64,000 nt of DNA from the NCBI RefSeq assembly GCF_009193175.1, contig NZ_VUKE01000004.1, positions 62,001 through 126,000 on the forward strand, written 5' to 3'. The stretch is from Georgenia ruanii (GTDB taxonomy: Bacteria > Actinomycetota > Actinomycetes > Actinomycetales > Actinomycetaceae). The translations under genes were made by a program, and so were the position numbers. The first letter of the stretch is position 1, and each line of letters begins with the position of its first letter. The notes beneath the pieces were generated by a model, which was not told the DNA's origin, did not search any database, and worked only from the letters and a program-made list of their open reading frames with translations. Below, one piece after another: positions 6,325 to 31,455 of the stretch.

Positions 6325-6412
6325 TCCGGCAGCGTACTGACGGCTCCACGACACTGGTCGAGGAATCAGGGCGGAGAGCGATGACAGTCCCTCACCCCGG
6401 TCGACGCACCGG

Positions 6413-8751: not shown

Positions 8752-8889
8752 CTGTGTCCGCCTGTCTTCTCGATGACGATGAGGGGGCGCGATGCCGACC
8801 ACAGCGGTCCGGCGGTGCAGCGCCCGATGGTCAGCAGCACGATAAAGAGGTTCCTCACCTCGCCGCTCCGGAAATGAGCCGCCAACGGG

Positions 8890-9015: not shown

Positions 9016-9699
9016 ATGTCGGACAAGAACACTGACCGGAAGGCACGAGAGGCCAGGCGGCTGCGTAAGCGACGCGCCTGGTTCATAGGAGCTGCCGTGC
9101 TCGTGATCGGCGGTACCGCCGGGATCGCGGGCGCCGCCGCGGGAACTGGGCAGGCCGGGAATGCACCGCCGGCAACCGGGCAGGCGGAACTGCGGCAGGG
9201 GGAGAGCGTCGCGAGCACGCTGGTGCAGGGCACCACCGTCACTGCCGTGGGCAACACCAAGGCTGGCCCCGCGCCGACTGCCGCCCCGAAGGTCCCTAAG
9301 CCGGTGCCGGTCAAGCTCAAGGAGAAGGCCCAGCTTGAACCCGCGGTCAGTGCACGCCTCGTCGGACTCGGCGTCACCCAGGCCGAAGGGCACGGACCGG
9401 GCGACCTCAGCGGAGACGCCTATGCCGTGACGGTCGAGATCACGAACGGTTCCGGTCGTCCGCTCGACATGAGCAACGTCGTCGTCACACTCGACGCCGC
9501 CGACGGCACACCGGCATCGCCCGTCCAGGGGGACCCGGACGCCAAGCCCATGATGGGCAAGCTGCCCCCGGGCAAGGCCACAACAGGCACGTATCTCTTC
9601 TCATTGCCTCGCACGGGCGACACCGGCGTGCGAGTGAGCTTCACGTACGCGGCCGGGACCCCGACCGCGATCTTCTCCGGCGATGCGAGCTCGCTGTGA
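9016..9699 (+). CDS. Membrane-anchored DUF4352-like protein, module 1 'A' gene
   Basis: 227 residues. A very basic cytosolic N-terminus (about 1-22, KAREARRLRKRR) precedes one transmembrane segment (AWFIGAAVLVIGGTAGIAGAAAG), then a Gly/Ala/Pro-rich linker and a ~110-residue beta-rich domain (AYAVTVEITNGSGRPLD, then ATTGTYLFSLP) of DUF4352/telokin-like character. Topology is N-in, domain outside. It overlaps the next gene by TGATG, indicating coupled translation and a shared role. The protein at 26222 is its paralogue, also placed before a propeller/LamG/PKD gene. Function unknown; the pairing suggests an anchor or assembly partner for the large secreted protein. The ATG at 9016 is preceded by GGACGAGAG. 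Confidence 0.75.
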   Translation: MSDKNTDRKAREARRLRKRRAWFIGAAVLVIGGTAGIAGAAAGTGQAGNAPPATGQAELRQGESVASTLVQGTTVTAVGNTKAGPAPTAAPKVPKPVPVKLKEKAQLEPAVSARLVGLGVTQAEGHGPGDLSGDAYAVTVEITNGSGRPLDMSNVVVTLDAADGTPASPVQGDPDAKPMMGKLPPGKATTGTYLFSLPRTGDTGVRVSFTYAAGTPTAIFSGDASSL

Positions 9700-12600
9700 T
9701 GCGCCGGCAGATCGCCGTCGTCGGTCGGCGAACCGCCCTCGTGGCCGGACGAGGGAACAGCGTCCTGGGCCGCCTCGGACGAATGAGACGCGCCGGGCTG
9801 GCGCTCGTCGCCGCCGGCGGGCTCGCGCTTGCCGGAACGGTGGCAGTCGTCGCGCCGGCGAGCGCTGACATCGCGCCGGCCGACCCGAGCCTGCCGGCCA
9901 CGGTCACCGCCGACCGGTTGCCCACCGTCCAGATCGACGGGGTGGTCTGGTCCCAGGTGGTGGTGGGGAACACGGTGTATGCCGCCGGAAGCTTCGCGAC
10001 CGCGCGGCCGGCGGGGGCGGCCCCCGGGACGAACACGGTGCCACGCCAGAACCTGCTGGCCTACGACATCCGCACCGGCGCCCTGAACGCCTCGTTCGCC
10101 CCCAACCTCAACGCCCAGGCCCTGACGATCACGAAGTCCCCGGACGGCTCACGCATCTTCGTCGGCGGCGACTTCACGCAGGTCAACGGGCAGGCTCGGA
10201 ACCGCATCGCGGCCTTCGACACGGCGACCGGCCAGCTGGTGGCCGGGTTCGCACCGTCCGTGAACGGTCAGGTCCGCGCCGTGGCGGCGACCAGCTCGGC
10301 CGTCTACCTCGGCGGCACGTTCTCCACGGTCGGCGGCATCGGCCGCACCCGTCTCGCCGCCGTCGCGCCCTCGAACGGTGCGGTCCTGTCCTGGGCCCCG
10401 CGCGCGGACGACCGCCAGGTCGACGCCATGACCATGTCGCCCAGCGGCGGCAAGGTCATCGTGGGGGGCCGGTTCACGACACTCAGCGGCGTCGCGGCCT
10501 ACGGCATGGGCGCCCTCGACGCGTCCAGCGGTGCCGTCCTGCCCTGGCCCGCCAACCAGGTGGTGCGCGACGCGGGCAAGGACGCCGGGATCACCAGTCT
10601 CGCCGCCGACGGTGAGCGCGTCTACGGCAGCGGCTATCACTTCGGCGGAGGCGGGAACCTGGAGAACTCCTTCGCCGCGGACGGGGAGACGGGCCAGATC
10701 GTCTGGGTGGCGGACTGCCACGGCGACACCTACTCGGTCTTCCCCATGAAGGGCGCCCTCTACACCACCGGGCACGCGCACTACTGCGGCAACCTCGGGA
10801 CCGGTGGGTTCCCGCAGACCGAGCCCGAGTGGACGGAGTACCGCAGCATCGCCTTCAGCCGCGAGGCGACCGGGGTGAACAAGCCCGACATCTACGGATA
10901 CCCCGACAACCCGGGCGTGCCGTCGCCCACGCTCCTCAACTGGTTCCCCGACGTCAATCACGGCCTGTACACCGGCCAGTATCAGGGCCCCTGGCACGTC
11001 ACCGGCAACGACGAGTACCTGGTGCTGGGCGGGGAGTTCCGCAGCGTCAACGGGACCCCGCAGCAAGGCCTGGTGCGGTTCGCCTTCCCGCAGAACGCGC
11101 CGAAGGCGGAGGGGCCGCAGCTGAAGTTCGAGAAGTTCCTTCCCCGCGCCGTCTCGCTGGCGGCCGGCACCGTCCGTGTCTCGATGCCGGGGAACTGGGA
11201 CCGCGACAACGCCACCTTGACGTACCGGCTGTACCGCGACTCCGAGACGGTCCCACCGGTGTACGAGAAGGCGGTCACGGCGCGCTTCTGGGAGACCACA
11301 CCGCAGGGGTACCTCGACACGGGGCTGCAGCCCGGGGCGACGCATCGTTACCGGCTGACGGCGACCGACTCCACGGGCAACGTCGCGAAGTCGGACTGGG
11401 TGTCGGTGACCGTTTCCACCCAGGGACAGCTGAGCTCCTACGCACGCAAGGTCCTCGAGGGCAACCCGGCCAGCTACTGGCGTCTCGGCGAGCCCAACGG
11501 CCCCGACGTCTACGACTGGGCGGGCTTCTCCGACGCCACTGCCGGAAGCGGGGTCAGCCGGGGGGCGGCGGGCGCCATCACCGGTGACACGAACGCCGCG
11601 TCGCACTTCAACGGCACCGGCACGGGCACCGCGGCGACCCGGACGGCGCAGGACGGCCCGAACGTCTTCACCGCGGAGAGCTGGGTCCGGACCACCTCCA
11701 CACGAGGCGGCAAGATCATCGGGTTCGGCAACAGTGCGACCGGGAACTCCAGCGCCTACGACCGCCACGTCTACATGGACAACGCGGGCAAGATCTGGTT
11801 CGGCGTCCATCCGGGCGGCGTGCGCACGGTGAACAGCACCGCGTCCTACAACGACGGCCGGTGGCACCACGTCGTGGCCACCCTGGGGGCCAACGGCATG
11901 CAGCTGTTCGTCGACGGCAAGCGCGTCGCGCAGCGCTCCGACGTCACCGCGGCCCAGGGCTACTCCGGCTACTGGCGCATCGGCGGGGACAACCTGAACG
12001 GCTGGACCTCCCAGCCGGCCAGCAACTACCTCGACGGCGACATCGACGAGGTTGCGGTGTACCCGACCGTGCTCTCCGCAGCCGCCGTCAACGACCACTT
12101 CGTAGCCGGCGGAGGCACCTCCTCCGTGCCACCGGCACCGAGCGACAAGTACGGCGCGGCGGTCTACAACGCGGACCCGGACCTGTACTGGCGACTGAAC
12201 GAGCAGGCAGGCCCGACCGCGCAGGACGCGGGGAAGCAGGGCGTGCCCGGCACCTACAACGGTGAGTACCAGCTGCAGGCGGCGGGCGCCCTCGCCGGCG
12301 TGAACGACCGGGCCGTGCGCTTCACCGGGACCGGAGGGCACATCGCCTCCACCGCCCAGTTCACCAACCCGAGCGTCTACTCCCTCGAGCTGTGGTTCAG
12401 CACGACGACCACCCGCGGAGGAAAGCTCATCGGCTTCGGAGCCTCGGCCACGGGCACGTCGTCGAACTACGACAGGCACGTGTACATGCAGGACGACGGT
12501 CGCCTGGTGTTCGGGGTGTGGACCGGGCAGACGAACACCATCACCACGGATCGGGGCTACAACGACGGCCGCTGGCACCACATGGTCGCGACCCAGTCCT

Positions 12601-13988
12601 CCGGTGGCATGCGGCTCTACGTCGACGGCGCTCTCGCGGGCACCAACCCCCAGACCCAGGCGGAGAACTACACCGGGTACTGGCGGGTCGGCGGCGACAC
12701 CACCTGGGGCTCCTCCAGCCCGTTCCTGGAGGGCCTCATCGACGAGGCGGCCGTCTACTCCTCGGAGCTGTCAGCGAACCAGGTGTCCGAGCACTACGCC
12801 CTCGGCACCGATGCGCCGCCGCCGAACGTGGCGCCGACGGCGGCGTTCACCTCCACGGCGGCGAACCTGGCGGCGTCCTTCGACGCCGCGGGGTCCTCGG
12901 ACCCGGACGGGACCATCGCGTCCTACGCGTGGGACTTCGGCGACGGGGCCACGGGTACCGGGGTGAAGCCGTCGCACACGTACGCGGCGGCGGGCACCTA
13001 CACGGTCAGGCTCACGGTGACGGACAACGTCGGTGCGACGGGCACCGTGACCCACGCCGTGACGGTGACAGCGCCGCAGCCGGGGAACGTGGCGCCGACG
13101 GCGGCGTTCACCTCGACGGCGGCGGACCTGGCGGCGTCCTTCGACGCCGCGGGGTCCTCGGACCCGGACGGGACCATCGCGTCCTACGCGTGGGACTTCG
13201 GCGACGGCGCCACGGGTACCGGGGTGACGGCGTCGCACACGTACGCGGCGGCGGGCACCTACACGGTCAGGCTCACGGTGACGGACAACGTCGGTGCGAC
13301 GGGCACCGTCTCCCACGCGGTCACGGTGACGGCGCCGCCTGGCGAGGCGCCGCTCGCGGCCGACGCGTTCGGCCGCACCGTCGCTCGCGGCTGGGGCAGC
13401 GCGGACACGGGCGGCCCGTGGTCGGCCAGCGGCACGGGCGCGGTGCTCGACGTGGCCGACGGGGTGGGGCGGCTGACCGCTCCGGCCGCCGGCAGGACCA
13501 GCGGTGCCTACCTGACCGGGGTCTCGCAGACCTCTGGGCTCACCCAGGTCCAGGTCTCGCTCGACAAGATCGCGGACGGCGGCGGGTCGTACGTCAGCGT
13601 GCTGGGCCGGAGGGTCAACGGCCAGGACTATCGGCTGCAGGCGCGGGTCCTCTCGAACGGGACCGTGACCGCGGAACTCATGCGCTACACCACGAGTGAG
13701 GTCCGGCTGGGCAACGCCGTCACGGTTCCGGGAGTTCGCTTCGCCCCGGGCGATGTGGTCAACATCGTGTTCGAGGTGACGGGGACCAGTCCGACCCTGT
13801 TGCGAGCGAAGCTCTGGGAACAGGGCATGGCCGAGCCGTCGACGTGGTTGATCTCTGCCACCGACTCCACCGCCAGCCTTCAGGCTCCCGGGGGCATCGG
13901 CCTGCTGATGTACCTCAGCAGCTCGGCCACCAACGCCCCCGTGACCGCCAGGTTCGACAACCTGACCGTTCGGAAGGGGGGTGCCTGA
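9699..13988 (+). CDS. Secreted multidomain protein: DUF5122-like beta-propeller, FN3-like, two LamG, two PKD, C-terminal beta domain (module 1 'B' gene)
   Basis: 1429 residues, exported. Sec signal peptide about 28-55 (AGLALVAAGGLALAGTVAVV, then PASADI). Residues ~60-470 form a propeller with delta-60/DUF5122 repeats such as FVGGDFTQVNGQARNRIAAF. It contains the cluster DCHGDTY with GHAHYC (Cys340, His341, His359, His361, Cys363). An FN3-like segment (~485-575), two LamG/concanavalin-like domains (~580-805, ~815-1035; each with GRWHH and a YWRxGGD-like strand), two PKD domains (~1043-1210; PDGTIASYAWDFGDG) and a C-terminal jelly-roll-like domain follow. No LPxTG or SLH anchor is seen. Start overlaps the stop of the anchor gene; a GTG three bases earlier is possible. 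Likely a glycan-binding matrix or adhesive protein. Confidence 0.85.
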   Translation: MRRQIAVVGRRTALVAGRGNSVLGRLGRMRRAGLALVAAGGLALAGTVAVVAPASADIAPADPSLPATVTADRLPTVQIDGVVWSQVVVGNTVYAAGSFATARPAGAAPGTNTVPRQNLLAYDIRTGALNASFAPNLNAQALTITKSPDGSRIFVGGDFTQVNGQARNRIAAFDTATGQLVAGFAPSVNGQVRAVAATSSAVYLGGTFSTVGGIGRTRLAAVAPSNGAVLSWAPRADDRQVDAMTMSPSGGKVIVGGRFTTLSGVAAYGMGALDASSGAVLPWPANQVVRDAGKDAGITSLAADGERVYGSGYHFGGGGNLENSFAADGETGQIVWVADCHGDTYSVFPMKGALYTTGHAHYCGNLGTGGFPQTEPEWTEYRSIAFSREATGVNKPDIYGYPDNPGVPSPTLLNWFPDVNHGLYTGQYQGPWHVTGNDEYLVLGGEFRSVNGTPQQGLVRFAFPQNAPKAEGPQLKFEKFLPRAVSLAAGTVRVSMPGNWDRDNATLTYRLYRDSETVPPVYEKAVTARFWETTPQGYLDTGLQPGATHRYRLTATDSTGNVAKSDWVSVTVSTQGQLSSYARKVLEGNPASYWRLGEPNGPDVYDWAGFSDATAGSGVSRGAAGAITGDTNAASHFNGTGTGTAATRTAQDGPNVFTAESWVRTTSTRGGKIIGFGNSATGNSSAYDRHVYMDNAGKIWFGVHPGGVRTVNSTASYNDGRWHHVVATLGANGMQLFVDGKRVAQRSDVTAAQGYSGYWRIGGDNLNGWTSQPASNYLDGDIDEVAVYPTVLSAAAVNDHFVAGGGTSSVPPAPSDKYGAAVYNADPDLYWRLNEQAGPTAQDAGKQGVPGTYNGEYQLQAAGALAGVNDRAVRFTGTGGHIASTAQFTNPSVYSLELWFSTTTTRGGKLIGFGASATGTSSNYDRHVYMQDDGRLVFGVWTGQTNTITTDRGYNDGRWHHMVATQSSGGMRLYVDGALAGTNPQTQAENYTGYWRVGGDTTWGSSSPFLEGLIDEAAVYSSELSANQVSEHYALGTDAPPPNVAPTAAFTSTAANLAASFDAAGSSDPDGTIASYAWDFGDGATGTGVKPSHTYAAAGTYTVRLTVTDNVGATGTVTHAVTVTAPQPGNVAPTAAFTSTAADLAASFDAAGSSDPDGTIASYAWDFGDGATGTGVTASHTYAAAGTYTVRLTVTDNVGATGTVSHAVTVTAPPGEAPLAADAFGRTVARGWGSADTGGPWSASGTGAVLDVADGVGRLTAPAAGRTSGAYLTGVSQTSGLTQVQVSLDKIADGGGSYVSVLGRRVNGQDYRLQARVLSNGTVTAELMRYTTSEVRLGNAVTVPGVRFAPGDVVNIVFEVTGTSPTLLRAKLWEQGMAEPSTWLISATDSTASLQAPGGIGLLMYLSSSATNAPVTARFDNLTVRKGGA
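12828..13339 (+). repeat. Near-identical direct repeat encoding the two PKD domains
   Basis: Two units of about 251 bases (from 12828 and from 13089; period 261 bases = 87 codons) differ at only a few positions, including synonymous sites. This indicates a recent duplication or gene conversion inside the reading frame, not old domain divergence. Confidence 0.9.
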
Positions 13989-14001
13989 CCTGACGGGTGC
14001 C

Positions 14002-14033
14002 GCACGCACCCCCCTTCCGAGGGGGGTGCGTGC
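14002..14033 (+). terminator. Terminator hairpin after module 1
   Basis: A perfect 13-bp stem (14002-14014 with 14021-14033) and a 6-base loop lie 14 bases after the stop of the LamG/PKD gene. It ends the anchor-LamG transcript and argues against any upstream start of the beta-helix gene. Confidence 0.88.
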
Positions 14034-14137
14034 CCGTGCCGGACAATGTGCCGCCTGGCCTCGACGCGGGGCCGAGGGGTGCCCTGCCCGTTGGTGACGC
14101 TCCCCGGGAGGACCCACTGGAACGCCAGCGAGATCGG

Positions 14138-15937
14138 ATGCCACAGGTACGCCGCGGCCGACGGTCGATAACGCGCGTGTGGTCCACCCTGCTTGCGCTC
14201 GTCCTGCTCCTGGGCTCGGGTGGTCTCGCTCTGGGCCTGACCCGGCTCGGCTCGACGTCGAGCTCGGTGACGGACGCGGGCACGGCTCCGCAGGACGGCG
14301 CTCCCGACACGCGGACCATTCATGTGGCGCCCGACGGCGACGACACGGCCGAGGGCACCGCCATCGCGCCCAAGCGCACGCTGCAGGCGGCGGTCAACGA
14401 GTCGGACGCCGGGGACACGGTCATGGTGCACGCCGGCGTCTACCACGAGGAGCTCAAGATCGAGGAGCGACGAGGTCTGAGGCTCGTTGCGGCACCGGGG
14501 GCGGAGGTCTGGCTGGACGGGTCGGTCGTCGTGCCCGGTTGGGCCCGGGACGGCGAGCGGTGGGTCTCCGACGGTTGGAGCACCGAGTTCGACTCCAGTC
14601 CGACGTACAGCTGGGGGAAGCCGGACGGCGTGAGGCCCGGGTGGATCTTCCTCAACCCGGAGTACCCGTTGGCCGCGCACCCGGACCAGGTATGGATCGA
14701 CGGCGAACGTCAGGTGCAGGTGGGGGCGAGAGCGGAGGTACGCCCAGGGACCTTCTTCGTCGACTACGACGACGACAAGATGTTCCTGGGGAGCGACCCG
14801 ACCGGGCGAACCGTGACCGCGAGCGCGCAGGCTCGCGCCGTGCGGATCCTGAGCGCCGGGGTCCTCATCCGCGGCATCGGCGTCCGTAAGTACGCCCCCT
14901 CCGTACCGCACATGGGAGCGGTGACGGTGGAGGCGCCGGACGTCACGCTGGAGCACGTCAGCGTCACCGACAACGCCACGACCGGGATGCACGTGCTGAG
15001 CGAGCGTGCGAAGCTGCGCGACGTCACCCTCGAGCGCAACGGGATGATGGGCCTCAGCGCGACCGAGGCTGACGGCCTCGAGCTGGTGCGGGTGACGGCG
15101 AGCGAGAACAACCTCGAGGGGTTCAACAAGTCTCCGGCGGCCGGCGGCGCCAAGATCGGCCGGTCGTCGACGATCCTTGTCAAGGATTGCGTCTTTGCGG
15201 GGAACCTCGCGAACGGGCTCTGGTTGGACGAGTCCGTCTCCGGCATCAAGCTCCTGCACTCGCGCTTCGTGGACAACTCCGGCCACGGCATCTCGATCGA
15301 GGTCTCCGGCCACGGCACCGTCATGGGCAACGTCATCGCCCACAACGCCGGCAACGGTGTGAAGCTCAACGATGCGGAAGACGTCGCGGTGTGGAACAAC
15401 ACCTTCGTCGACAACGTCCGCTCGATCAACATCGTGCAGGACACCCGGGACGTCGAGCCTGGACGCACCTTCCGCGACCCCGAGCTGCCGCTCACCTGGC
15501 GGACCCAGCGCATCACCATCCGGAACAACGTCATCGCCGCCACCGGTACGCACCTCGGTGGCGCCGCCCGGTCCCGGACCTGCCTGTTGTGCGTCGAGGA
15601 CTACAGCGGTCGGTGGACCGCTGCCGAGATGGACGTGACCGCCCTGGGCAACGTGTACCAGCGGGCAGATGCCACGTCGCCGAAGTGGATGATCGTGTGG
15701 GCCCGACGCGACAAGGACCCGTACGTGTTCCACGGTGTGAAGGACTTCCGCGCCGCTGTGCGCCAGGAAGAGACCGGTGTGGAGGTGACCGGGACCTCGC
15801 TGCTGAGCGACGACTTCTGGCCGGAACCCGCTCTGGAGCACCTGTACGCCTCGGTGGCGCAACCGCTGCCCGCCGACCTCGCCGAGCTCGCTGGGCGCCC
15901 GGTCGGAGACCGGCACCTGGGGGCCTGGAGCCGATGA
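14138..15937 (+). CDS. Membrane-anchored right-handed parallel beta-helix protein
   Basis: 599 residues: short basic N-terminus, one transmembrane or uncleaved signal segment (~14-34, VWSTLLALVLLLGSGGLALG), a low-complexity linker, then IHVAPDGDDTAEGTAIAPKRTLQAA (split here by a DUF1565-like entry motif of pectate-lyase/beta-helix proteins) and NosD/Beta_helix-type coils (~270-480; for example HGISIEVSGHGTVMGN, NNTFVDNV). Such proteins bind or cleave acidic polysaccharides outside the cell; in this cluster it could be an epimerase, lyase or modifier of the exopolysaccharide. Catalytic residues cannot be assigned. ATG 14138 was chosen since earlier in-frame starts would translate the terminator stem. 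Confidence 0.75.
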   Translation: MPQVRRGRRSITRVWSTLLALVLLLGSGGLALGLTRLGSTSSSVTDAGTAPQDGAPDTRTIHVAPDGDDTAEGTAIAPKRTLQAAVNESDAGDTVMVHAGVYHEELKIEERRGLRLVAAPGAEVWLDGSVVVPGWARDGERWVSDGWSTEFDSSPTYSWGKPDGVRPGWIFLNPEYPLAAHPDQVWIDGERQVQVGARAEVRPGTFFVDYDDDKMFLGSDPTGRTVTASAQARAVRILSAGVLIRGIGVRKYAPSVPHMGAVTVEAPDVTLEHVSVTDNATTGMHVLSERAKLRDVTLERNGMMGLSATEADGLELVRVTASENNLEGFNKSPAAGGAKIGRSSTILVKDCVFAGNLANGLWLDESVSGIKLLHSRFVDNSGHGISIEVSGHGTVMGNVIAHNAGNGVKLNDAEDVAVWNNTFVDNVRSINIVQDTRDVEPGRTFRDPELPLTWRTQRITIRNNVIAATGTHLGGAARSRTCLLCVEDYSGRWTAAEMDVTALGNVYQRADATSPKWMIVWARRDKDPYVFHGVKDFRAAVRQEETGVEVTGTSLLSDDFWPEPALEHLYASVAQPLPADLAELAGRPVGDRHLGAWSR

Positions 15938-15991
15938 CCCCGGTCATCGCGCGCGGGGCAGAGATGGCCGGGCCCGACCGGATCGTCGCGG

Positions 15992-16028
15992 GAATCGGCC
16001 CCGTACGGCCCGATGCCCGCCGTACCCT
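15992..16028 (+). promoter_or_regulatory. Promoter-like element (copy D) before the Wzz/BY-kinase gene
   Basis: GAATCGG (15992) followed by CCCGTACGG and, 25 bases after the GAATCG box, TACCCT (16023-16028). The order and spacing match the elements before 26222 and 30714 (CAATCG, CCGTCCG, TAGCGT), so the three operons may share a regulator or sigma factor. Confidence 0.45.
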
Positions 16029-16105
16029 CGGCGTTGGGGGAACGGACGCAAGCCAGCTGACGAGTCCGCACGCTGGCCTCGGAGCCGCAGAGCAAGGGGA
16101 TGTCC

Positions 16106-17791
16106 ATGTCGTTCCGTGAGTACCTGGAGCTGCTGCAACGGCGTTGGCGCATCGTGGTGTCGATGCTCATGATCGGTCTGCTGGTTGCGGTGGCATTCAA
16201 CGTGCTCGCCCGGAAGTCGTACACGGCGGCGGCGACCTCCTTCGTCACGGTCTCCGATGCGGACGCCGCGGCGTCGGGTGAGCTGTTCCAGGGCTCGCAG
16301 TTCGCCGTGCAGCGGATGGCCTCCTACGCGGCTCTGAGCTCGAGCCCTGAGGTGCTCGACGGAGTGATCGACGAGCTCGCGCTCGACATCTCGCCACGGG
16401 CGCTGCGAAAGATGGTGACCGTCTCCAGCCCAGCGACCAGCGTGCTGCTCGAAGTGTCCGTCGAGGACGCAGATCCTCGGCAGGCGGCGAACATCGCCGA
16501 CGAGGTGTCCCGTCAGCTCGGGATGCTGATCGAGCGGCTCGAGACGCCACGCGGCCTGGCCGCGTCCTCGGTGAAGGTCACCCTGACCCGGCCCGCAGAC
16601 GTCCCGGTCGCGCCGTCCTCACCGCGCGTGACGCTCAACCTTCTTCTCGGCATGGCAGGTGGCGCCGCGGCCGGTTTGCTGCTGGCTCTGCTCAGGCATC
16701 ACCTCGACCGCCGCCTCAGGACCGTTGCCGACGTCCGGGCGATCACCGAGGTGGCGCCGCTCGGCTCGACCATCCATTCCCGGGCGGCCGAGCGTGAGCC
16801 ACTCGTCGCCACGGAGCTCGGGTCGGTGGAGGCGGAGCGTTACCGCAGCATCCGGGCCTCTCTGAAGCTCGCCGACGCGGGCCGCGAGAGCCACCAGCTT
16901 GTCATCAGCTCGCCGGCCGCCGGTGACGGCAGGACGAGCGTGGCCGCGAACCTGGCGCTGAGCTGGGCCGTCGCCGGCGCCACGGTGTGTCTTGTCGACG
17001 CCGATCTGCGGAGCCCCACGGCTTCCCGAGTCTTCGGGCTCGAGAGCGCCGACGGGCTCACCGACGTGGTGGCCGGTGACGCAGAGCTCGACACCGTGCT
17101 CCGTTCCTGGAACGGCGGTGCCCTCACCATCCTGCCCGCAGGGTCGCTGCCACCGGATCCGGTCGAGCTGCTCGGGTCCAAGGCCATGGGCCACCTGATC
17201 GCTGAGCTGGGAGCGCGCTTCGATGTCGTGATCTACGACTCGGAACCCATGCTCGCGGTCGGCGACGCGGCTGTCCTGGCGCGCGCGGTGGGCGGCCTGG
17301 TGCTGGTGGTTCGCTCAGGCGCGACCACGGCGGCTCAGCTCTCGGCCTGCCTCGAGAAGGTGCGGGGGGCCCGGCTGCCCCTGCTCGGCACGGCGCTCGT
17401 CGGAGTCAAGGAGCGTCGACGCGCCAGACGCCGGCACCGCGTCGTGGACGACGGGCGCCGGGTCGTGGAGCCCCGAGACGCCGCACCGAGTCGGCGACAC
17501 CGAGTGCCGCCGCCGACCGGGCGCGCCACGACAGCCGAGGTCTTGCGCAGCCTAGGTGCGCGGTCGGGCGATGATGCGGTGGGCGAGCATCGACATCGTG
17601 AAGAAGACGATGAAGGCCGGCGCGGTGTCGAACATGCCGCTCTCCAGCACGCCCACCAGCGTGACGAGCAGGGCGAGGCCTCCGACGAGCGATCGCTGTG
17701 GCCGGGGGAGCCGCAACGCACGGACAAGGGTGGCGAGCACGAACAGCAGCAGGATCATGCTGCCGACGTACCCAGCCTGGATCAGCGCTGA
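16106..17791 (+). CDS. Wzz-type polysaccharide co-polymerase fused to a degenerate BY-kinase domain
   Basis: 561 residues controlling chain length/export in Wzx/Wzy pathways. TM1 about 16-35, extracytoplasmic Wzz loop, Pro-rich PVAPSSPR (167-174) before TM2 (~176-196), then a cytosolic CpsD-like ATPase. The P-loop reads AAGDGRTS with Arg276 where Lys is invariant; Walker A' VDADLRSPT (298-306) is intact; the C-terminus has no Tyr cluster. It may therefore not autophosphorylate. The second ATG (16106) fits the SD AAGGGG better than the ATG at 16100. The last ~80 residues overlap the convergent Wzy gene by 240 bases and look like accidental read-through (highly charged), so the functional protein probably ends near residue 440-480. 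Confidence 0.82.
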   Translation: MSFREYLELLQRRWRIVVSMLMIGLLVAVAFNVLARKSYTAAATSFVTVSDADAAASGELFQGSQFAVQRMASYAALSSSPEVLDGVIDELALDISPRALRKMVTVSSPATSVLLEVSVEDADPRQAANIADEVSRQLGMLIERLETPRGLAASSVKVTLTRPADVPVAPSSPRVTLNLLLGMAGGAAAGLLLALLRHHLDRRLRTVADVRAITEVAPLGSTIHSRAAEREPLVATELGSVEAERYRSIRASLKLADAGRESHQLVISSPAAGDGRTSVAANLALSWAVAGATVCLVDADLRSPTASRVFGLESADGLTDVVAGDAELDTVLRSWNGGALTILPAGSLPPDPVELLGSKAMGHLIAELGARFDVVIYDSEPMLAVGDAAVLARAVGGLVLVVRSGATTAAQLSACLEKVRGARLPLLGTALVGVKERRRARRRHRVVDDGRRVVEPRDAAPSRRHRVPPPTGRATTAEVLRSLGARSGDDAVGEHRHREEDDEGRRGVEHAALQHAHQRDEQGEASDERSLWPGEPQRTDKGGEHEQQQDHAADVPSLDQR

Positions 17792-18781
17792 CACCCAGGA
17801 GCTGTCAAGCATCTGCTGGTCGCGGTAGAGGGCGGTGACGGGAATCTGCTTCAGGGCGAGCCCGCTGCCGAACAGCTGCACGGAGGGCGTGTCGGCGTAG
17901 TCGAGCGCGGCGCGCCACGCGACCGTCCGGTTGTTGAGCGTGGTCACGCTCTCCAGATCGCCGCGTCCCGCGAACGCGGTGACGAGCGGGGTGAGGAACG
18001 CGACCGCCAGGGCCATCGGAACGGTTGCGGCGATCCCGGCCACGACCCGGGGAGGAACCCGTGGTGCCACGACCACGAGCAGCACCATGATGAAGATCAG
18101 TCCGGCGAGGCCGGTCCGTGAGCCCGTCAGCCAGATCAGGCCGAGCAGCGGGAGCAGGCCGTAGAACTCGGCGCGCGACGCCGTGCCGTGGACCGCCTTC
18201 CAGAACAGGATGACCACCGGGACGCTCACCAGCAGGCAGATCTCGTTGGCGTTCAACGGAGGGATCCCGCCGTAGAGCCGCCCGGTCGTGGCCAGGGAGC
18301 CCAGGCCGGTCAGGGCGCCGAAGCAGGCCAGCAGGAGCATCGCGCTGCTCATGGCGCTGAGGACCACGTGCCAGGGGTGGCTGACCGTGACGAGGACGAG
18401 CGCGAACGCCAGGAGCGCCAACCGGCCGGCCAGCACGATCGTCGGCAGTCCGTCGGCGTTGAGGATGCCGCCGATGACGGAGATGAGCAGATAGCTCCCC
18501 AGCCAGAGCACGGGCGCCGCTGCCATCCGGCCCCAGGCGCCCGGGGGCCTACGCATCAGCAGCGCGATGACGACCGCGAGGACGGTCAGTGCCGCCTTCG
18601 CGACGACCACGACATCGAGGCCGCCGGAGTAGAAGGCGCCCCTCCGCCACGCCACCGAAGACACGACGAGGAGCAGACAGACGAAGAACAGAGGGAACGG
18701 CCGCATCGTGAGCACCCGCAACACGGAGGCGGGCTCGACCGCGGGCCGCTCCGGCAGCTCCAGCTGCGGCGCCTGCGTCAC
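17552..18781 (-). CDS. O-antigen ligase/Wzy-like polymerase, polytopic membrane protein
   Basis: 409 residues with about 10-12 membrane segments (for example FFVCLLLVVSSVAW, LALLAFALVLVTV, GLIFIMVLLVVVAP). LLGLIWLTGSRTGLAGL and PPLNANEICLLVSVPV match the conserved WaaL/Wzy_C core, which joins or polymerises undecaprenyl-linked units on the outer face of the membrane. The GTG start at 18781 overlaps the TGA of the flippase gene (GTGA), so the export and polymerisation genes are coupled. Its 3' end overlaps the convergent Wzz gene. Whether it acts as polymerase or ligase cannot be told. Confidence 0.85.
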   Translation of the reverse strand: MTQAPQLELPERPAVEPASVLRVLTMRPFPLFFVCLLLVVSSVAWRRGAFYSGGLDVVVVAKAALTVLAVVIALLMRRPPGAWGRMAAAPVLWLGSYLLISVIGGILNADGLPTIVLAGRLALLAFALVLVTVSHPWHVVLSAMSSAMLLLACFGALTGLGSLATTGRLYGGIPPLNANEICLLVSVPVVILFWKAVHGTASRAEFYGLLPLLGLIWLTGSRTGLAGLIFIMVLLVVVAPRVPPRVVAGIAATVPMALAVAFLTPLVTAFAGRGDLESVTTLNNRTVAWRAALDYADTPSVQLFGSGLALKQIPVTALYRDQQMLDSSWVSALIQAGYVGSMILLLFVLATLVRALRLPRPQRSLVGGLALLVTLVGVLESGMFDTAPAFIVFFTMSMLAHRIIARPRT

Positions 18782-20040
18782 GCTGACACCTTCGCGGGTG
18801 CGGCGGCGCCCGTGCGGGCGTCCGGCCGCAGCAGGACCTGACGGCACAGCAGGCCGCCCGCGAAGGAGCCGACCGAGAGCAGCCAGGGCATCCAGTGCGT
18901 GCCCACGTTCGCTGCCATCAGCACGACCCCCACGAGGGCCAGGGCGAGCGCCGAGTCGGCGACGCGGATGAGCAGGACCCAGTGCTGCTTGCCCCGCACG
19001 GCGGCCAGGCTGCCGTATGGCAGGACCGCGGCGCACGACGCGGCGTAGCAGGCCCAGCCCAGCGCGGCGACCAGACTGAGCTGGTACCGGTCGGCCGTGA
19101 GCAGCGATCCCACCCGGGGCAGCAGCAGAGCGGCGGCCACGCCGACGGCGACAGAGCCCGCCAGCATGACCGTCGCCGCGCGATCCGCGCGGGCCAGCAG
19201 CGCTCGCGCACCCTGGGCGCGGTCGGCGGCGTAGGAGGAGAACAGGTACGACCCGAACCCCTGGACGAGCAGCATGGCGGGCGCCACGAAGACCCGGGCG
19301 GCTTCGAGCTCACCGACGGCCGCGGCCCCGCCGAGGACCAGCACCACCCAGCGGGCGGCGTTCAGCGTGGTCGGCCGGACGAACTGCTGCAACGCTCGCC
19401 ACGAGCCGTACCGCACGACCGCCCCCCAATCGCCCCGGCCGCGGCGGGGGAGCCGGCGCTCGGCGGCGGGCAGTCGGGCCAGCGCGAGCAGTCCGGCCAC
19501 CACCTGGCCGATCGCGAGGCCGGCGAGGAAGTGGTCGAGGCCCAGCGCCCCGACAAGCCTGGAGCCGAGCAGGAAGACGAGCATGGCGAGGAACCCGACG
19601 GAGTCGACGACCGGGAGGCTCCAGAACCGCAGGTTGGCCATCAGCAGACGCCGTCCCAGGTCGGCCCAGACGAAGGCGGTGAGCGCCACCGCGAACAGCG
19701 CCGCGGTGACCGCCGAGAACTGCCCGCGGGCGAGGACGAAGCCGGTCAGGCACAGGGCAGCGCCGAGGACCCAGCCGAGTCGGAACAGAGCCGTCCGGAC
19801 CGGTGCGGCCTGCCGGTCCAGGACCGTGAGGGAATCGCCGACGAGGCCGGTGGTCAGCGCGGTCGCCATGACGATGACGCCGAACATCAGCGCGAAGGTC
19901 CCAAACCCTGCCGCACCAAGCTCCCGGCTGGCGCCGACCTGCAGGACGAAGCTGCTCAGCGCGAGAGTCGCCTGGCCGGCAAGCGCGCCGAAGGCCTGCA
20001 GGGGAAGGCGCGACAGGCCGGAGCGCAACCTCGACGGCAT
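18778..20040 (-). CDS. Wzx-type oligosaccharide flippase (MOP superfamily)
   Basis: 420 residues, about 12 to 14 hydrophobic segments (FGALAGQATLALSSFVLQVG, FGVIVMATALTTGLVGDSL, VFLLGSRLVGALGL, and so on), consistent with a polysaccharide-unit flippase that moves lipid-linked repeats across the membrane. The ATG at 20040 has AGAGAGG eight bases upstream; a GTG at 20046 is closer to that SD and less likely. Pairs with the Wzy-like gene by a 4-base overlap and is transcribed away from the ABC transporter. A second flippase domain occurs in the fusion gene at 40003. Confidence 0.82.
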   Translation of the reverse strand: MPSRLRSGLSRLPLQAFGALAGQATLALSSFVLQVGASRELGAAGFGTFALMFGVIVMATALTTGLVGDSLTVLDRQAAPVRTALFRLGWVLGAALCLTGFVLARGQFSAVTAALFAVALTAFVWADLGRRLLMANLRFWSLPVVDSVGFLAMLVFLLGSRLVGALGLDHFLAGLAIGQVVAGLLALARLPAAERRLPRRGRGDWGAVVRYGSWRALQQFVRPTTLNAARWVVLVLGGAAAVGELEAARVFVAPAMLLVQGFGSYLFSSYAADRAQGARALLARADRAATVMLAGSVAVGVAAALLLPRVGSLLTADRYQLSLVAALGWACYAASCAAVLPYGSLAAVRGKQHWVLLIRVADSALALALVGVVLMAANVGTHWMPWLLSVGSFAGGLLCRQVLLRPDARTGAAAPAKVSA

Positions 20041-20233
20041 TGCCACCGCCTCTCTGCGGGATCGGGCAACGTCAGCATGCTGGTGCCACGGTAGACCTCG
20101 ACCCGTAGGGACCGGGGCGGTCCGGGACGAAAGAATGGCCGCCGAGGCGCGTCCGCATCGTCCCCTCGGCAGAGATGCAGGTCAGAGGCGACCGATAGGG
20201 GGCCACCGGTTCCGAGGTGGGAGGATCGCCTCC

Positions 20234-22210: not shown

Positions 22211-22301
22211 CACGGGCGGCCGGCGCCACCGCCGCGGCCGAGCGCCCGGTCCCCGGTTCGCCCTGCACGAACCCCGCTCGGCGCCTGGGCGCCGCCGACC
22301 G

Positions 22302-22307
22302 TAGACT
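22302..22307 (+). promoter_or_regulatory. -10 element TAGACT for mfd
   Basis: TAGACT matches TAnnnT in the 223-base gap between the ABC exporter and mfd, about 125 bases before the mfd start. No convincing -35 box. Confidence 0.35.
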
Positions 22308-22433
22308 CGTGCGCGGACCCCGCCCCCTCCGGGATGCGGGGCTCACGTGCTGCCCGCGCGGGGCCAGGTCCCGCCGTCGTGCTCCCGGCCGGAACGCGCA
22401 GCGCGCCGCCCACCGCCTGGCCCCGAAGGACTC

Positions 22434-25400: not shown

Positions 25401-26051
25401 CAGGTGGCCATGAAGGACCTCGAGATCCGCGGCGCCGGCAACCTGCTCGGCGGGGAGCAGTCCGGACACATCGCCGGGGTCGGCTTCGACCTGTACGTGC
25501 GGATGGTCTCCGACGCCGTCGCGGAGTTCCGCGGCGAGAAGGAGACCGAGAAGGCCGACGTCAAGATCGAGCTGGCGGTCGACGCGCACGTGCCGCACGA
25601 CTACATCGCCCACGAGCGGCTGCGCCTGGAGGCCTACGCCAAGATCGCCGCAGCCGCCGACGACGCCGCCATCGCCGCCGTGCGCGAGGAGCTCGTGGAC
25701 CGCTACGGGCCCGTGCCCGAGCCGGTCGAGCGGCTCTTCGCCGTCGCCGCGCTGCGCGACAAGGCCCGCGAGGTGGGGCTCACCGACATCACCGCCCAGG
25801 GCAAGTACGTCCGCTTCGCCCCGGTGGAGCTGCCCGAGTCCGCCCAGCTGCGCCTCAAGCGGCTCTACCCCGGCACCGTGCTCAAGCCGGCGGTGCGCAC
25901 GATCCTCGTGCCCTACCCGATGACCGCCCGCCTGGGCGGCAAGCCGCTCAAGGACGTCGCGCTGCTGGAGTGGGTCGGGCAGGTCATCGACGCGGTCCTC
26001 AAGGACTCCGTCGCCGCGGCCGCGACGGTGGGGGCGGCCTCGGCGCACTGA
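22434..26051 (+). CDS. mfd: Transcription-repair coupling factor
   Basis: Removes RNA polymerase stalled at DNA lesions and recruits UvrA; cytosolic translocase. At 1205 residues it is full length. N-terminal UvrB-homology region (~1-350; [31 protein letters not shown]), RNA polymerase interaction domain ([18 protein letters not shown], ~520-600), helicase motor with Walker [10 protein letters not shown] near residue 674 and DEEQ box IIDEEQRFG, motif VI region [20 protein letters not shown] and C-terminal domains. The ATG at 22434 is preceded by GAAGGA. It is core: in many actinobacteria mazG and eno follow soon after; here island 2 follows instead. Confidence 0.98.
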
Positions 26052-26080
26052 CCGGCACGGGCCGCGACCGGGTGGCACGA

Positions 26081-26173
26081 CCGCACCCGACCGCAAGATC
26101 TCCGCATCTCGGGCCAGGAGAGCCGCACGGCCGCGGCAATCGCCTCCGTCCGCGCATGCGCGCGCCCTAGCGT
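26081..26173 (+). promoter_or_regulatory. Bipartite upstream element and promoter (copy B) before module 2
   Basis: CCGCACCCGACCGCAAG (26081) and GGCAATCGCCTCCGTCCG (CAATCG at 26137) lie exactly 56 bases apart start to start, followed 25 bases later by the -10-like TAGCGT (26168-26173). Copy C before 30714 has the same order, the same 56-base distance and the same -10. The rest of the 170-base gap after mfd is featureless. Confidence 0.55.
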
Positions 26174-26221
26174 TCGGCCACGGCGCGCAGGGCGCCGGCC
26201 CGGACGCGAGGTGTGTGCGCA

Positions 26222-26872
26222 ATGCAAGGAAGGCTACGCGGGCGGGCGCTCGGAGGACTCGCCGCCGTGATCGCGGCGCTCGCCGTCGTCGGCTGGGCAC
26301 TCGGCGGAGGCGCCGACGAGCCGGCCCCCTCCAGCTCGGCCCCGTCCGCGGCGCCGACTGCCTCCGCGCCCGCCGCCCCACCCACGCAGATGCCGGACGG
26401 GGCGCCGATCCCGTCACCCAGCCCGGGGACGCCCAGCACCCTCGGCGCCGGCAGGACGGAACCCGTCGAGCCCGTCCCGACCAACCCGCCGGTCGGGTTG
26501 GACGAGACCGCCGACTTCGGAACCGGGCTCACCGTCAGCCTGACGGAGATCGTGCCCGTGCAGGGCGTGGCCCGCGCCCCCGGCGAGATCGCGGGCCCCG
26601 CCCTGGCGGTAACCGTCGAGGCGACGAACAGCTCGGCCGGGGCGCTCTCCCTCGACGGCGTGACCGTGTTCGTGTCCTACGGCCAGGACCGCACACCCGC
26701 CACCGACTTCGAGCAGGGCAGCGCGCCGCTGCGGGGCGACCTGGCCGCCGGGTCCTCCGCCACCGGGACGTATGTCTTCGCCGTGCCGGAGGACCGGCGC
26801 GACGACGTCCGTGTCGAGATCAGCTACACGGGTGCGGCGCCCACCGTGGCGTTCGGGGGCTCCGTTGACTGA
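26222..26872 (+). CDS. Membrane-anchored DUF4352-like protein, module 2 'A' gene
   Basis: 216 residues. Basic N-terminus, single membrane segment (~8-27, ALGGLAAVIAALAVVGWALG), then a ~60-residue Ala/Pro/Ser-rich spacer and a beta-rich domain (ALAVTVEATNSSAGALSL, SSATGTYVFAVP, DVRVEISYTGAAPTVAFGG) that aligns with the anchor protein at 9016 across the whole extracytoplasmic part. It is followed within 35 bases by the second propeller/LamG/PKD gene, so gene order and pairing are conserved between the two copies. The ATG 26222 is preferred over a GTG at 26213 on SD spacing. First gene of island 2 after mfd. No known function. Confidence 0.72.
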   Translation: MQGRLRGRALGGLAAVIAALAVVGWALGGGADEPAPSSSAPSAAPTASAPAAPPTQMPDGAPIPSPSPGTPSTLGAGRTEPVEPVPTNPPVGLDETADFGTGLTVSLTEIVPVQGVARAPGEIAGPALAVTVEATNSSAGALSLDGVTVFVSYGQDRTPATDFEQGSAPLRGDLAAGSSATGTYVFAVPEDRRDDVRVEISYTGAAPTVAFGGSVD

Positions 26873-26906
26873 CCAGGCCACCGGATCCGCACGCGGCCAT
26901 CGCCGC

Positions 26907-29900
26907 ATGCACGCCCGCACGCCCCACGGCGTCCGGGTTCCAGCACTCAAGGATGTGGGGTTGACCGCCGTGGACACTTCCCGGAACCTGCCGGTGCGAG
27001 GCGTGCGGCAGCTCAGGCAGCGACTGGTCGCCGGGCTGGCCCTCGTGCTCGCCGTCGCGCTTCTCGGCCTCGGCGGACCGCCGACCGCACGGGCCGACAC
27101 GAGACCGGCTGACCCCCAGGCCCCCACCACCCCGGTCACCGTGTCAGCGGACGACCTCCCCACGCCGCAGATCAACGGGGTGGTCTGGTCGATGGCGATG
27201 GTCGGCGACGTCGTGTACGTCGGCGGGAGCTTCTCGGAGGCGCGGCCGGCCGGTTCGGCACCGGGGCAGAACACGGTGCCGCGGTCGAACATGATGGCGT
27301 TCGACGTCACCACCGGCCAGATGACGTCCTTCGCGCCGACGTTCAACCAGCAGGTGCGGTCGATCGCGGTGTCCCCGGACAAGACCCGCCTCTACGTCGG
27401 CGGTGAGTTCACGACCGTCAACGGTCAGCCCCGTCAACGCCTGGCGGCCTTCGACGTCGCCACGGGCGCGCTGGTCCCCGGCTTCGCTCCGCCGATGGGC
27501 TACCACGTCGCCGCCATCGTGGCCACCAACACGACGGTGTACGCCGGCGGCTCGTTCAACGGCGTGGGCAGCGCGAGCCGTCAGAACCTTGCGGCGTTCA
27601 ACGCGTCGAACGGGGCGTTGCTCGACTGGGCGCCGCAGGCCACCGGCGGCACCGTCGCGGCGCTCGCGATCAACCCCGAGGGCACCAAGGTCGCGGTCGG
27701 GGGCGGGTTCACCGCGCTCAACGGCTCGAGCAACCCCGGCTACGGGCTCGGCATGGTCGATGCGACCACCGGGGCAAGCCTGCCGTTCGCGGTCAACCAG
27801 TACGTTCGCAACGGCACCGTCGACGGCGCCATCGACACGCTCGCCACCGACGGTACGTACGTCTACGGCGGCGGCTGGACCTACGGCAAGAGCGGCGGCA
27901 CCTGGGAAGGCACCTTCGCGGCGAGCTGGAACGCCGGGGAGGTCCGGTGGCTCGACGACTGCCACGGGGACACGTATGGCGTCTACCCCGTCGGCGACGT
28001 GGTGTACGGCGCGGGACACACCCACTACTGCGAGAACATCGACGGTGTGCGCCAGGGGGCCGGCGGCGTCGGCGACTATCCGTACTACCGGGCGATCGCT
28101 CTCGGTAAGGCGCCCACCGGCACCGGGTCCTGGGAGCCGGACCAGGGGCGCTACTACAGCTTCGAGGGCCAGCCGACCTCATCGCAGCTGGGCTGGTACC
28201 CCCAGTTCAACGCCGGCACCTTCACCGGCCAGTTCCAAGGCCCGTGGAGCGTGGTCGGCAACAGCGACTACGTCGTGTACGGGGGCGAGTTCACCCGGGT
28301 CAACGGCACCAGTCAGCAGGGGCTCACACGGTTCACCGTGAGCGGCAAGGCCCCCAACGCCAAGGGACCGACCTTGTTCGCCGCGACCTACCCCCTGAAC
28401 GTGCGCTCGACGGGGGCCGGTCAGGTGCGGATCAGCTGGCGGACCAACGAGGACATCGACAACGAGTATCTGACCTACCGCGTCTACCGCGACACACAGA
28501 ACGCGGCAGGGCTGATCCACACGCGCAGCGCCGCGGCGCGGTTCTGGAACCCCTACACGATGGGCGTGACCGACAGCGGACTCGCGCCGGGCTCGACGCA
28601 CCAGTACCGCGTCGTCGTCACGGACCCCTTCGGGAACGTGGCCAACTCGCCGTGGACCAGCGTGACGGTGGCCTCGAGCGGCGCGGACAGCGCCTACGTC
28701 AAGGCGGTCTACGCCGGCCAACCGACGGACTACTGGCGGATGGGCGAGACCTCGGGGACCACGGCGGCCGACTCGGTCGGGTTCCACCCGCTCACCGCGG
28801 CCACCGGGATGAAGCGCACGTCGGCCGGCGCCATCAGGAACGACGGCGACGGCGCGGCCACCTTCGGCGGCACCAACACCGGCTGGGCCGCGACGACCAC
28901 ACCGGGCAACCCGCCCGACGTGTTCACGATCGAGACGTGGTTCAAGACGAGGACGACCGCGGGCGGTCGGCTGGTCGGGTGGAGCAACCGCAACACGCAG
29001 GGCAGCTCCAGCCGGCACGACCGGCAGCTCTACATGGACAACACCGGCCGCATCCACTTCGGCGTGAAGCCGAACGCCAGCAGGCTCGTGGTGAGCAGTC
29101 CCGGCCGCTACAACGACGGCGCCTGGCACCACGCCGTGGCCACGCTGTCCAAGAGCGGCATGCGGCTCTACCTCGACGGCAAGCAGGTGGGCGCGCGTAC
29201 CGACGTCACCGTCGGGCAGCACCTCGCGATCGGCTACTGGCGCATCGGCGGCGACACGGTCAGCGGCTGGCCATCGGCGCCGACGAGCGGCTACTTCGCC
29301 GGTGACATCGACGAGATCGCGATCTACAAGACCGAGCTGTCCGCGGCCGACATCGCGGCGCACTACGCGGCGGGCACCGGCGGAGCGGCCCCCAACAGCG
29401 CTCCTGTCGCCGCCTTCGGCTTCGGGACGAGCGCGCTGACCGTCACGGTGGACGGCGCGGGCTCGAGCGACGCGGACGGGACGATCGCGTCGTACGCGTG
29501 GACGTTCGGCGACGGCGGCAGCGCCACGGGCGCCCAGGCCAGCCACGCCTACGCCGCGCCCGGCACCTACCGGGTCACGCTCACGGTCACCGACGACGCC
29601 GGGGCGAGCGGCACCCTCGCCAAGGACGTCACGGTCACCGCCCCGCCGAACGCCGACCCGACGGCCTCCTTCACCATGGCGCCGAACGGGCTGACGCTGG
29701 CGGTCGACGGCACGAACTCCTCCGACCCGGACGGCACGATCGCGTCATACGCCTGGACGTTCGGGGACGGCGGCACCGCCTCCGGGCCGACGGCGAGCCA
29801 CACCTACGCCGTCACCGGCGCCTACGACGTCACGCTCACCGTCACGGACGACCGTGGCGCGACGAACACCCTGACGCAGAAGGCCGGCGTCAATGCCGAG

Positions 29901-30545
29901 ACCACGCCGTTCGCGCTGGACGCCTTCGGACGCTCGGTCACCAACGGCTGGGGAAGTGCCGACCTCGGCGGTGCCTGGGCACGCACCGGGACCGCGTCGA
30001 ACTTCGCGGTCACCAACGGGGTGGGGACGATCCGCATGGGCGCCCCTGGGGCCGGTCCCGCGGCGCAGCTGGCCGGGGTGTCCTCCAGCGGCACCGACGT
30101 TCGGGTCCGGGTCGGTGCCGACAAGGCGGCGACCGGGGGTGGCACCTACCTGACCGTGGAGCCCCGTCTCGTGTCCGGCGGCGATCGCTATTTCGCCGAC
30201 ATCAGGCAGCTGTCGACCGGTGAGGTCATGCTCATCCTCGGCCGGGCCGTGGGCGGCACGGAGACCAACCTGCAATCCAGGACGGTCGGCGGGCTCATGG
30301 TCGCGCCGGGCGACCTCGTCCAGGTGCGGGTGCAGGCGTTCGGGACCTCGCCGACGATCCTCCAGGCCAAGGTGTGGGCGACCGGCACCCCCGAGCCGGA
30401 GGCGTGGACGGCGTCGGTCACCGACTCGACGGCGGGGCTGCAGACCGCGGGCGGTGTCGGACTGCGGACGTATCTGTCCGGATCGGCCACCAACGCGCCG
30501 GTACTGGGCCTGTTCGACGACCTGTGGGCCGGACCGACGCCATGA
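26907..30545 (+). CDS. Secreted multidomain protein: DUF5122-like beta-propeller, FN3-like, LamG, two PKD, C-terminal beta domain (module 2 'B' gene)
   Basis: 1212 residues, paralogue of the protein at 9699 with one LamG domain instead of two. Signal peptide (~38-62, LVAGLALVLAVALLGLGG, then ARADT); propeller ~75-480 with YVGGEFTTVNGQPRQRLAAF repeats and the cluster DCHGDTY ... GHTHYC (Cys352, His353, His371, His373, Cys375); FN3-like ~490-580; LamG ~585-815 (GAWHHAVATL, GYWRIGGDT); two PKD (~825-1000; DGTIASYAWTFGDGG); C-terminal beta domain starting FALDAFGRSVTNGWGSADLGG (split from its neighbours here). Start uncertain: ATG 26907 chosen; TTG 26865 overlapping the previous stop, or GTG 26970, are alternatives. 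Likely an extracellular glycan-binding protein. Confidence 0.84.
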   Translation: MHARTPHGVRVPALKDVGLTAVDTSRNLPVRGVRQLRQRLVAGLALVLAVALLGLGGPPTARADTRPADPQAPTTPVTVSADDLPTPQINGVVWSMAMVGDVVYVGGSFSEARPAGSAPGQNTVPRSNMMAFDVTTGQMTSFAPTFNQQVRSIAVSPDKTRLYVGGEFTTVNGQPRQRLAAFDVATGALVPGFAPPMGYHVAAIVATNTTVYAGGSFNGVGSASRQNLAAFNASNGALLDWAPQATGGTVAALAINPEGTKVAVGGGFTALNGSSNPGYGLGMVDATTGASLPFAVNQYVRNGTVDGAIDTLATDGTYVYGGGWTYGKSGGTWEGTFAASWNAGEVRWLDDCHGDTYGVYPVGDVVYGAGHTHYCENIDGVRQGAGGVGDYPYYRAIALGKAPTGTGSWEPDQGRYYSFEGQPTSSQLGWYPQFNAGTFTGQFQGPWSVVGNSDYVVYGGEFTRVNGTSQQGLTRFTVSGKAPNAKGPTLFAATYPLNVRSTGAGQVRISWRTNEDIDNEYLTYRVYRDTQNAAGLIHTRSAAARFWNPYTMGVTDSGLAPGSTHQYRVVVTDPFGNVANSPWTSVTVASSGADSAYVKAVYAGQPTDYWRMGETSGTTAADSVGFHPLTAATGMKRTSAGAIRNDGDGAATFGGTNTGWAATTTPGNPPDVFTIETWFKTRTTAGGRLVGWSNRNTQGSSSRHDRQLYMDNTGRIHFGVKPNASRLVVSSPGRYNDGAWHHAVATLSKSGMRLYLDGKQVGARTDVTVGQHLAIGYWRIGGDTVSGWPSAPTSGYFAGDIDEIAIYKTELSAADIAAHYAAGTGGAAPNSAPVAAFGFGTSALTVTVDGAGSSDADGTIASYAWTFGDGGSATGAQASHAYAAPGTYRVTLTVTDDAGASGTLAKDVTVTAPPNADPTASFTMAPNGLTLAVDGTNSSDPDGTIASYAWTFGDGGTASGPTASHTYAVTGAYDVTLTVTDDRGATNTLTQKAGVNAETTPFALDAFGRSVTNGWGSADLGGAWARTGTASNFAVTNGVGTIRMGAPGAGPAAQLAGVSSSGTDVRVRVGADKAATGGGTYLTVEPRLVSGGDRYFADIRQLSTGEVMLILGRAVGGTETNLQSRTVGGLMVAPGDLVQVRVQAFGTSPTILQAKVWATGTPEPEAWTASVTDSTAGLQTAGGVGLRTYLSGSATNAPVLGLFDDLWAGPTP

Positions 30546-31454: not shown

Positions 31455-31455
31455 G

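Follow-up and report, generated by a model that had tools for sequence, protein, structure and literature searches.

The closest described systems are the matrix proteins Bap1 and RbmC of Vibrio cholerae, secreted proteins in which a beta-propeller and lectin-like modules are tied to exopolysaccharide, and whose propeller, according to the available part of the source, binds the Vibrio polysaccharide (PMC10102183). The same part gives them eight blades and a beta-prism, and describes no anchored small partner (PMC10102183). The large proteins discussed here, designated B, share the secreted propeller and the tie to exopolysaccharide (EPS), with LamG domains instead of the beta-prism, whereas they differ in being paired with a small anchored protein, designated A. 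No description of the A-B pair was found in the open-access literature, to which the search extended, so that the novelty is provisional; the earlier note on this DNA knew of no described system with such a pairing. To our knowledge, little is understood of how Gram-positive Actinobacteria retain at the cell the polysaccharide that they secrete.

The window, i.e. the whole stretch of 64,000 nucleotides that was analysed, contains two such pairs, all four genes on the forward strand. Gene A1 (9016..9699, ATG at 9016 and stop at 9699) encodes an N-terminal transmembrane (TM) anchor recognized by eye, a linker and a DUF4352/MPT63-like domain. It overlaps B1 (9696..13988, starting at GTG 9696 or ATG 9699), whose product has a signal peptide (by eye), a core of propeller and FN3-like domain, two LamG stretches, two PKD domains and a C-terminal beta domain. 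The second pair consists of A2 (26222..26872, start at ATG 26222 or GTG 26213), with a TM anchor, a Pro/Ala-rich linker and an Ig-like domain (residues about 90-216), followed after a 34 bp gap by B2 (26907..30545), which has the same composition as B1 except for a single LamG stretch (signal peptide again by eye, two PKD domains, LamG and PKD by Pfam). With 35% identity over 131 aa between A1 and A2 (E 8e-18), and 49% over 786 aa plus 49% over 618 aa in the second half between B1 and B2, the view that these are two paralogous pairs in the same gene order is borne out, and searches of the own genome gave only these two A and two B genes, with no further copies. The word "duplicated" in the earlier note is thus correct in the sense of paralogy, but a recent local duplication is rejected by the B tree. 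In the trees A2 and B2 fall with Georgenia sequences. B1 clusters, with modest support, with sequences from Cellulomonas and Actinotalea (support for its exact place is low, 0.33-0.83), and A1 has no settled place.

The surroundings of the pairs had been described as exopolysaccharide genes in both cases, which is clear for pair 1 and less so for pair 2. Upstream of pair 1 lie two GT4-type glycosyltransferase genes (6413..7603 and 7600..8757, the latter start approximate, both on the minus strand) and a large LuxR-type regulator identified by eye (3463..6354, minus strand), a relative of which is found near a pair in L053, L056 and L057. Downstream are a right-handed beta-helix protein (Pfam) with an N-terminal TM segment seen by eye (13997..15937, plus strand), a Wzz/BY-kinase-type chain-length protein (16100..17791, plus strand), a Wzy_C-type polymerase/ligase (17552..18781, minus strand) and a Wzx-like flippase recognized by eye, without Pfam match (18778..20040, minus strand). 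Pair 2 has mfd upstream, identified from sequence by eye both here and in the earlier note, and downstream, all on the plus strand, a CDP-alcohol phosphatidyltransferase (30714..31454), an Acetyltransf_6 (GNAT) protein (31441..32715) and a GINT1_N-like protein (32718..34202). Further along, the window codes on the minus strand for a 707-aa protein with Big_5 and CBM96 domains (35867-37990); CBM96 is also C-terminal in a sister-type B protein of a presumed Streptomyces (L228). A 1025-aa protein with a membrane-rich start by eye (40003-43080, minus strand) has GT2 genes near it and gave zero Pfam matches at E≤0.001.

The structure predicted for A2 has a low-confidence helix (residues 14-23) and a low-confidence linker, presumably disordered, in front of an Ig-like beta-sandwich (AF2 pLDDT about 97). 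The nearest folds to this domain are 5bxg, YxkC, YjhA and MPT63. The sole fold matches at E≤0.001 were 5bxg, 9a4z, 3cfu, 4les and 1lmi, with modest TM-scores, and those to 3cfu, 1lmi and 5bxg (E≤8.5e-4, target TM-scores 0.49-0.63) place the modelled domain in the MPT63-like Ig fold. DUF4352 (PF11611), to which an immunoglobulin fold was given earlier in the available part of PMC4520260, is matched by A1 and A2 with 18.5 and 20.4 bits, below the Pfam gathering cut-off of 25.9; 26 of 50 A members match it at E≤0.01, the best at 1.4e-7. The A subfamily is thus similar to Pfam DUF4352 and the MPT63-YjhA Ig-like proteins in its Ig-like fold, and is distinguished from them by the pairing with B. Judging from sequence motifs, A appears to be anchored in two alternative ways, by a TM helix or by lipid. 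In the g4 genomes a lipobox replaces the TM helix in six of seven A genes (the seventh was called without its N-terminus), and a simple motif detected a lipobox in 16 of 82 A genes called by our own script, several of which have truncated starts.

The propeller and FN3-like domain that form the core of B are predicted with a pLDDT of 92, and Foldseek identifies the core as WD40-like. Rax2 is matched above its Pfam cut-off of 28.8 by B1 (34.1) and B2 (38.3), DUF5122 (cut-off 27) is matched above it by B1 (30.5) and below it by B2 (21.4), and fn3 gives a weak match in B2 only (E 0.06). The domains listed in the earlier note, a DUF4352-like A and a B with a Rax2/DUF5122 propeller, LamG and PKD, were thereby recovered, fn3 weakly. 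At E≤0.001, Rax2 matches 56 of 56 B cores and DUF5122 54 of 56, while no NCBIfam family matches more than two of the 56 and sequence searches of the PDB yielded nothing useful. As compared to Rax2 and DUF5122 (delta-60) propellers, B adds the FN3-like, LamG and PKD domains as well as a DCHGD/HxHYC signature, which is present in the core of B1. Invariant in the 56 cores are D293, C294, H295, G296, D297, H313, H315, C317, E276, Q386, W389 and E403 (numbered on the translation of window 27081-28722). Because of these residues, an alternative stays live in which B acts enzymatically on EPS, cutting or modifying it; DCHGD/HxHYC/E/Q/W would then be the putative active site, and A a membrane cofactor or tether. 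Such dense conservation of polar residues would also fit an enzyme, propeller-fold lyases exist, and the beta-helix fold, represented among the neighbours of the pair (18 of 79 loci), is common among polysaccharide-acting enzymes. However, the 50 Foldseek matches listed (of 243 at E≤0.001) are mostly WD40 scaffolds and include no lyase, and sister B types keep the C and HxHxC but not HGD, so that we regard an enzymatic role as rather unlikely.

The C-termini of B vary: besides LamG and PKD there are repeat or Asp/Asn-rich tails and, in 61 of 157 genes, a domain with a GWG motif. A sortase-type anchor was looked for in these 157 B genes, which were called by the same script and score above 500 bits, and some of which are cut at locus ends; a C-terminal hydrophobic segment was found in none, and LPxT[GAN] in the last 60 residues in three. 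Some Georgenia B paralogues (L053, 8356-16876) end in tandem GDWDGDG-type repeats instead of the GWG domain. In L067 (4723-11632), EPS-type genes are accompanied by large proteins in tandem that have a DUF5122-type propeller, are distantly B-like and show a fibrinogen-like start by eye.

The constancy of the pairing was examined by separate searches for A and B in the family, the order and the class, with cut-offs chosen after gaps in the score lists were seen; few candidates were scored per genome (e.g. three for B in the class census), so misses are possible. Among 121 genomes of the family, strong B (E<1e-80) occurs in 11, and all 11 also have A (E≤3e-8). Nine more lack A and have a B match of lower significance (2.5e-43 to 7e-4); four have an A-like match without strong B (G010 at 2.9e-9; G084, G093 and G097 at 4e-4 to 6e-4). 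The order census, comprising 297 genomes, detected A (E≤1e-15) in 44, strong B (best E≤1e-150) in 45 and both in 44 (Fisher 5e-52); the sole strong-B genome without A (G519) is in about 500 contigs, and the 45 do not include five genomes that lack A and whose B lies at 1e-101 to 1e-108. For the 394 genomes of the class the numbers are 19 for A (E≤1e-20), 21 for B (E≤1e-150) and 19 for both (Fisher 2e-30), the two B-only genomes (G136 and G395) belonging to one family. Weaker matches are more widespread in the class: B-like propellers at E≤1e-20 occur in 111 of the 394 genomes and A-profile matches at E≤0.001 in 193, the latter, among the matches listed, mostly to the N-terminal anchor and linker columns. 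Matches to the Ig columns of A at 3e-13 to 3e-7 were left uncounted in eight genomes (G389, G483, G336, G302, G437, G293, G512 and G381); G483, G336, G437 and G381 also hold a B relative, and in these the Ig-column match is either on a different contig or 84 kb or more distant.

The two genes are also close together. In the order census the nearest B match lies within 1 kb of 38 of the 50 A matches and within 5 kb of 48 (distances here and in the Streptomyces-type census below run to the profile match, not to the gene end); B is downstream on the same strand in 44 cases, upstream on the same strand in five and on the opposite strand in one. B outnumbers A, with 77 places (E down to 8e-123) against 50. 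The gene following a called A on the same strand is B in 70 of 82 cases, and B lies just upstream in four more, for loci that were partly chosen for A or B and were not dereplicated. The orders A-B, B-A and B-A-B all occur, and in L192 four B genes stand behind a single A. Among the best 75 named loci, which were found by B alone, A was in reach in 62. The constant pairing that the earlier note proposed is thus strongly supported by the separate searches at all three levels. Chance adjacency, the outcome it named if A were usually found without B or B without A, is rejected by the same searches; in the order census all 44 A genomes have strong B.

The link with exopolysaccharide genes is strongly supported across genomes. 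In a set of 79 loci that contain a called A, chosen for holding A or B and not dereplicated, the families found most often within 8 kb of the pair are CDP-alcohol phosphatidyltransferase (51, the family of the gene behind pair 2), GT4 (48, that of the gene at 7600..8757), GT2 (42) and cytidylyltransferase-like proteins (33). These are followed by a weakly GT-like family (27), a further GT4 family (26, that of the gene at 6413..7603), Wzz/BY-kinase (23), a further GT2 family (22), Bac_transf (22), the beta-helix proteins (18, the family of the gene at 13997..15937) and a Wzy-like family that Pfam does not match (16). Two or more EPS markers, which were picked from A-bearing loci, occur in 56 of the 62 A-bearing loci as compared to two of the 13 without A among the best 75 named loci; the remaining six A-bearing loci have fewer than two. 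Five of the 13 are cut by a contig end or represent later tandem copies (L150, L171, L183, L191, L207), and the other eight are orphan B loci with full flanks (L153, L154, L188, L190, L195, L214, L216, L222), none of which has any EPS marker. In L231, L233, L234 and L235 a B without nearby A stands among unrelated genes, and the genomes concerned hold A beside another B. It follows that B can exist without a neighbouring A, and that A goes with B in EPS clusters whereas B outside such clusters is without A. EPS-type surroundings with a B relative and no A were seen in G136 (NCYGA type), G395 (context by eye) and G022 (a distant B beside a CDP-alcohol transferase). Short propeller-only B relatives of 506-545 aa (L241, L246, L249-L251) have Wzz and either cytidylyltransferase or CDP-alcohol transferase genes as neighbours. 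In the loci examined, no small partner was seen beside these short proteins or beside B relatives without EPS context.

These observations bear on two other explanations. A could be devoted to the export or folding of B, acting in secretion instead of retention; in most operons A comes first, the two genes overlap by 4 bp in three of 70 called pairs and in pair 1 of the window, and one DUF4352-like fold match is a protein modelled with DacA (PDB 9a4z title). On the other hand, B genes occur without a neighbouring A, the order B-A exists and the signal peptide of B is ordinary-looking by eye, which makes this explanation very unlikely. Alternatively, A and B could act independently on the same polymer, for example A in assembly and B in the matrix, and be neighbours via the shared EPS cluster in which both are found. 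The tree distances of A and B are correlated (Spearman 0.36, 0 of 500 permutations as high); the partial correlation is 0.30 given the GT4 tree (1/500) and 0.17 given the CDP-alcohol transferase tree (8/500), and this fall indicates that co-location explains part of the correlation, i.e. that locus history contributes to it. Nevertheless, with B this close to 48 of 50 A matches and no A genome of the order census lacking strong B, while even the commonest EPS family is near the pair in just 51 of 79 loci that had been chosen for A or B, independent action is quite improbable.

A sister type of B, found in genomes of 5.5-12 Mb that are presumably Streptomyces, carries mostly xCLGA in place of DCHGD and keeps HxHxC. 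Its loci contain Bac_transf and, by eye, GDP-sugar genes, and in the 13 examined loci a lipoprotein gene was found directly after B in all 13. DUF732 is matched by two of three scanned lipoproteins (2e-4, just below the Pfam cut-off, and 0.07). Homology of this lipoprotein to A was considered and rejected, hhalign aligning 21 columns in the signal region only. A census of 91 genomes gave the lipoprotein (E≤1e-30) in 34, B (E≤1e-40) in 41 and both in 33; three lipoprotein (A5) matches at 2e-7 to 3e-6 and matches to second fragments of B genes were omitted. The lipoprotein is present in each of the 33 genomes whose B frame is long (at least 700 aa) and in none of the eight with short B only; the one lipoprotein genome showing no B is an assembly of 740 contigs. 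In 34 of 35 places the lipoprotein is on the same strand near a B. The strongest argument for a genuine function of the small partner together with B is that two unrelated anchored small proteins are found next to B types in EPS clusters. One may tentatively extend this to a general cell-to-matrix tether of Actinobacteria, in which propeller matrix proteins would be captured by a small anchored partner, with the anchor (TM or lipid) and the partner domain (Ig-like or weakly DUF732-like) exchanged and the EPS-cluster arrangement kept; in this general form the idea is somewhat doubtful.

The reading we prefer, to which we give about an even chance, is that A and B are the surface-anchored partner and the EPS-matrix protein of one system resembling Bap1/RbmC. 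B unites a beta-propeller and a lectin-like module in one large protein with a secretion signal (by eye), is coded with exopolysaccharide genes, and without A is mostly found elsewhere; by analogy, the binding of Vibrio polysaccharide by the Bap1/RbmC propeller favours the matrix-protein reading. In such a system B would be secreted, and its propeller-FN3 core, together with lectin-like LamG domains and PKD domains as spacers, would bind the polysaccharide made by the neighbouring genes, giving matrix cohesion or surface adhesion. A would be fixed in the membrane by its TM helix or lipid, with the Ig-like domain at the tip of the probably disordered linker, and could, from the cell side, capture the B proteins of its locus or hold them in position (one A to one to four B). 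We infer contact between A and B, binding of B to the polymer and the matrix role from these features taken together. Since A is anchored in two ways, no anchor is found on B and one A often stands beside several B genes, it is a reasonable inference from the sequences that A anchors, folds or exports B, as the earlier note suggested.

Thus, A and B, which many soil-type Actinobacteria encode almost always side by side within the clusters for their outer sugar coat, probably belong to a system, so far undescribed, that keeps this coat or a sticky matrix attached to the cell surface. As a widely conserved, linked pair in EPS clusters, they offer a candidate for the cell-matrix link that can be tested directly. 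The DUF4352-like and DUF5122-like families, both without known function, gain a shared context.
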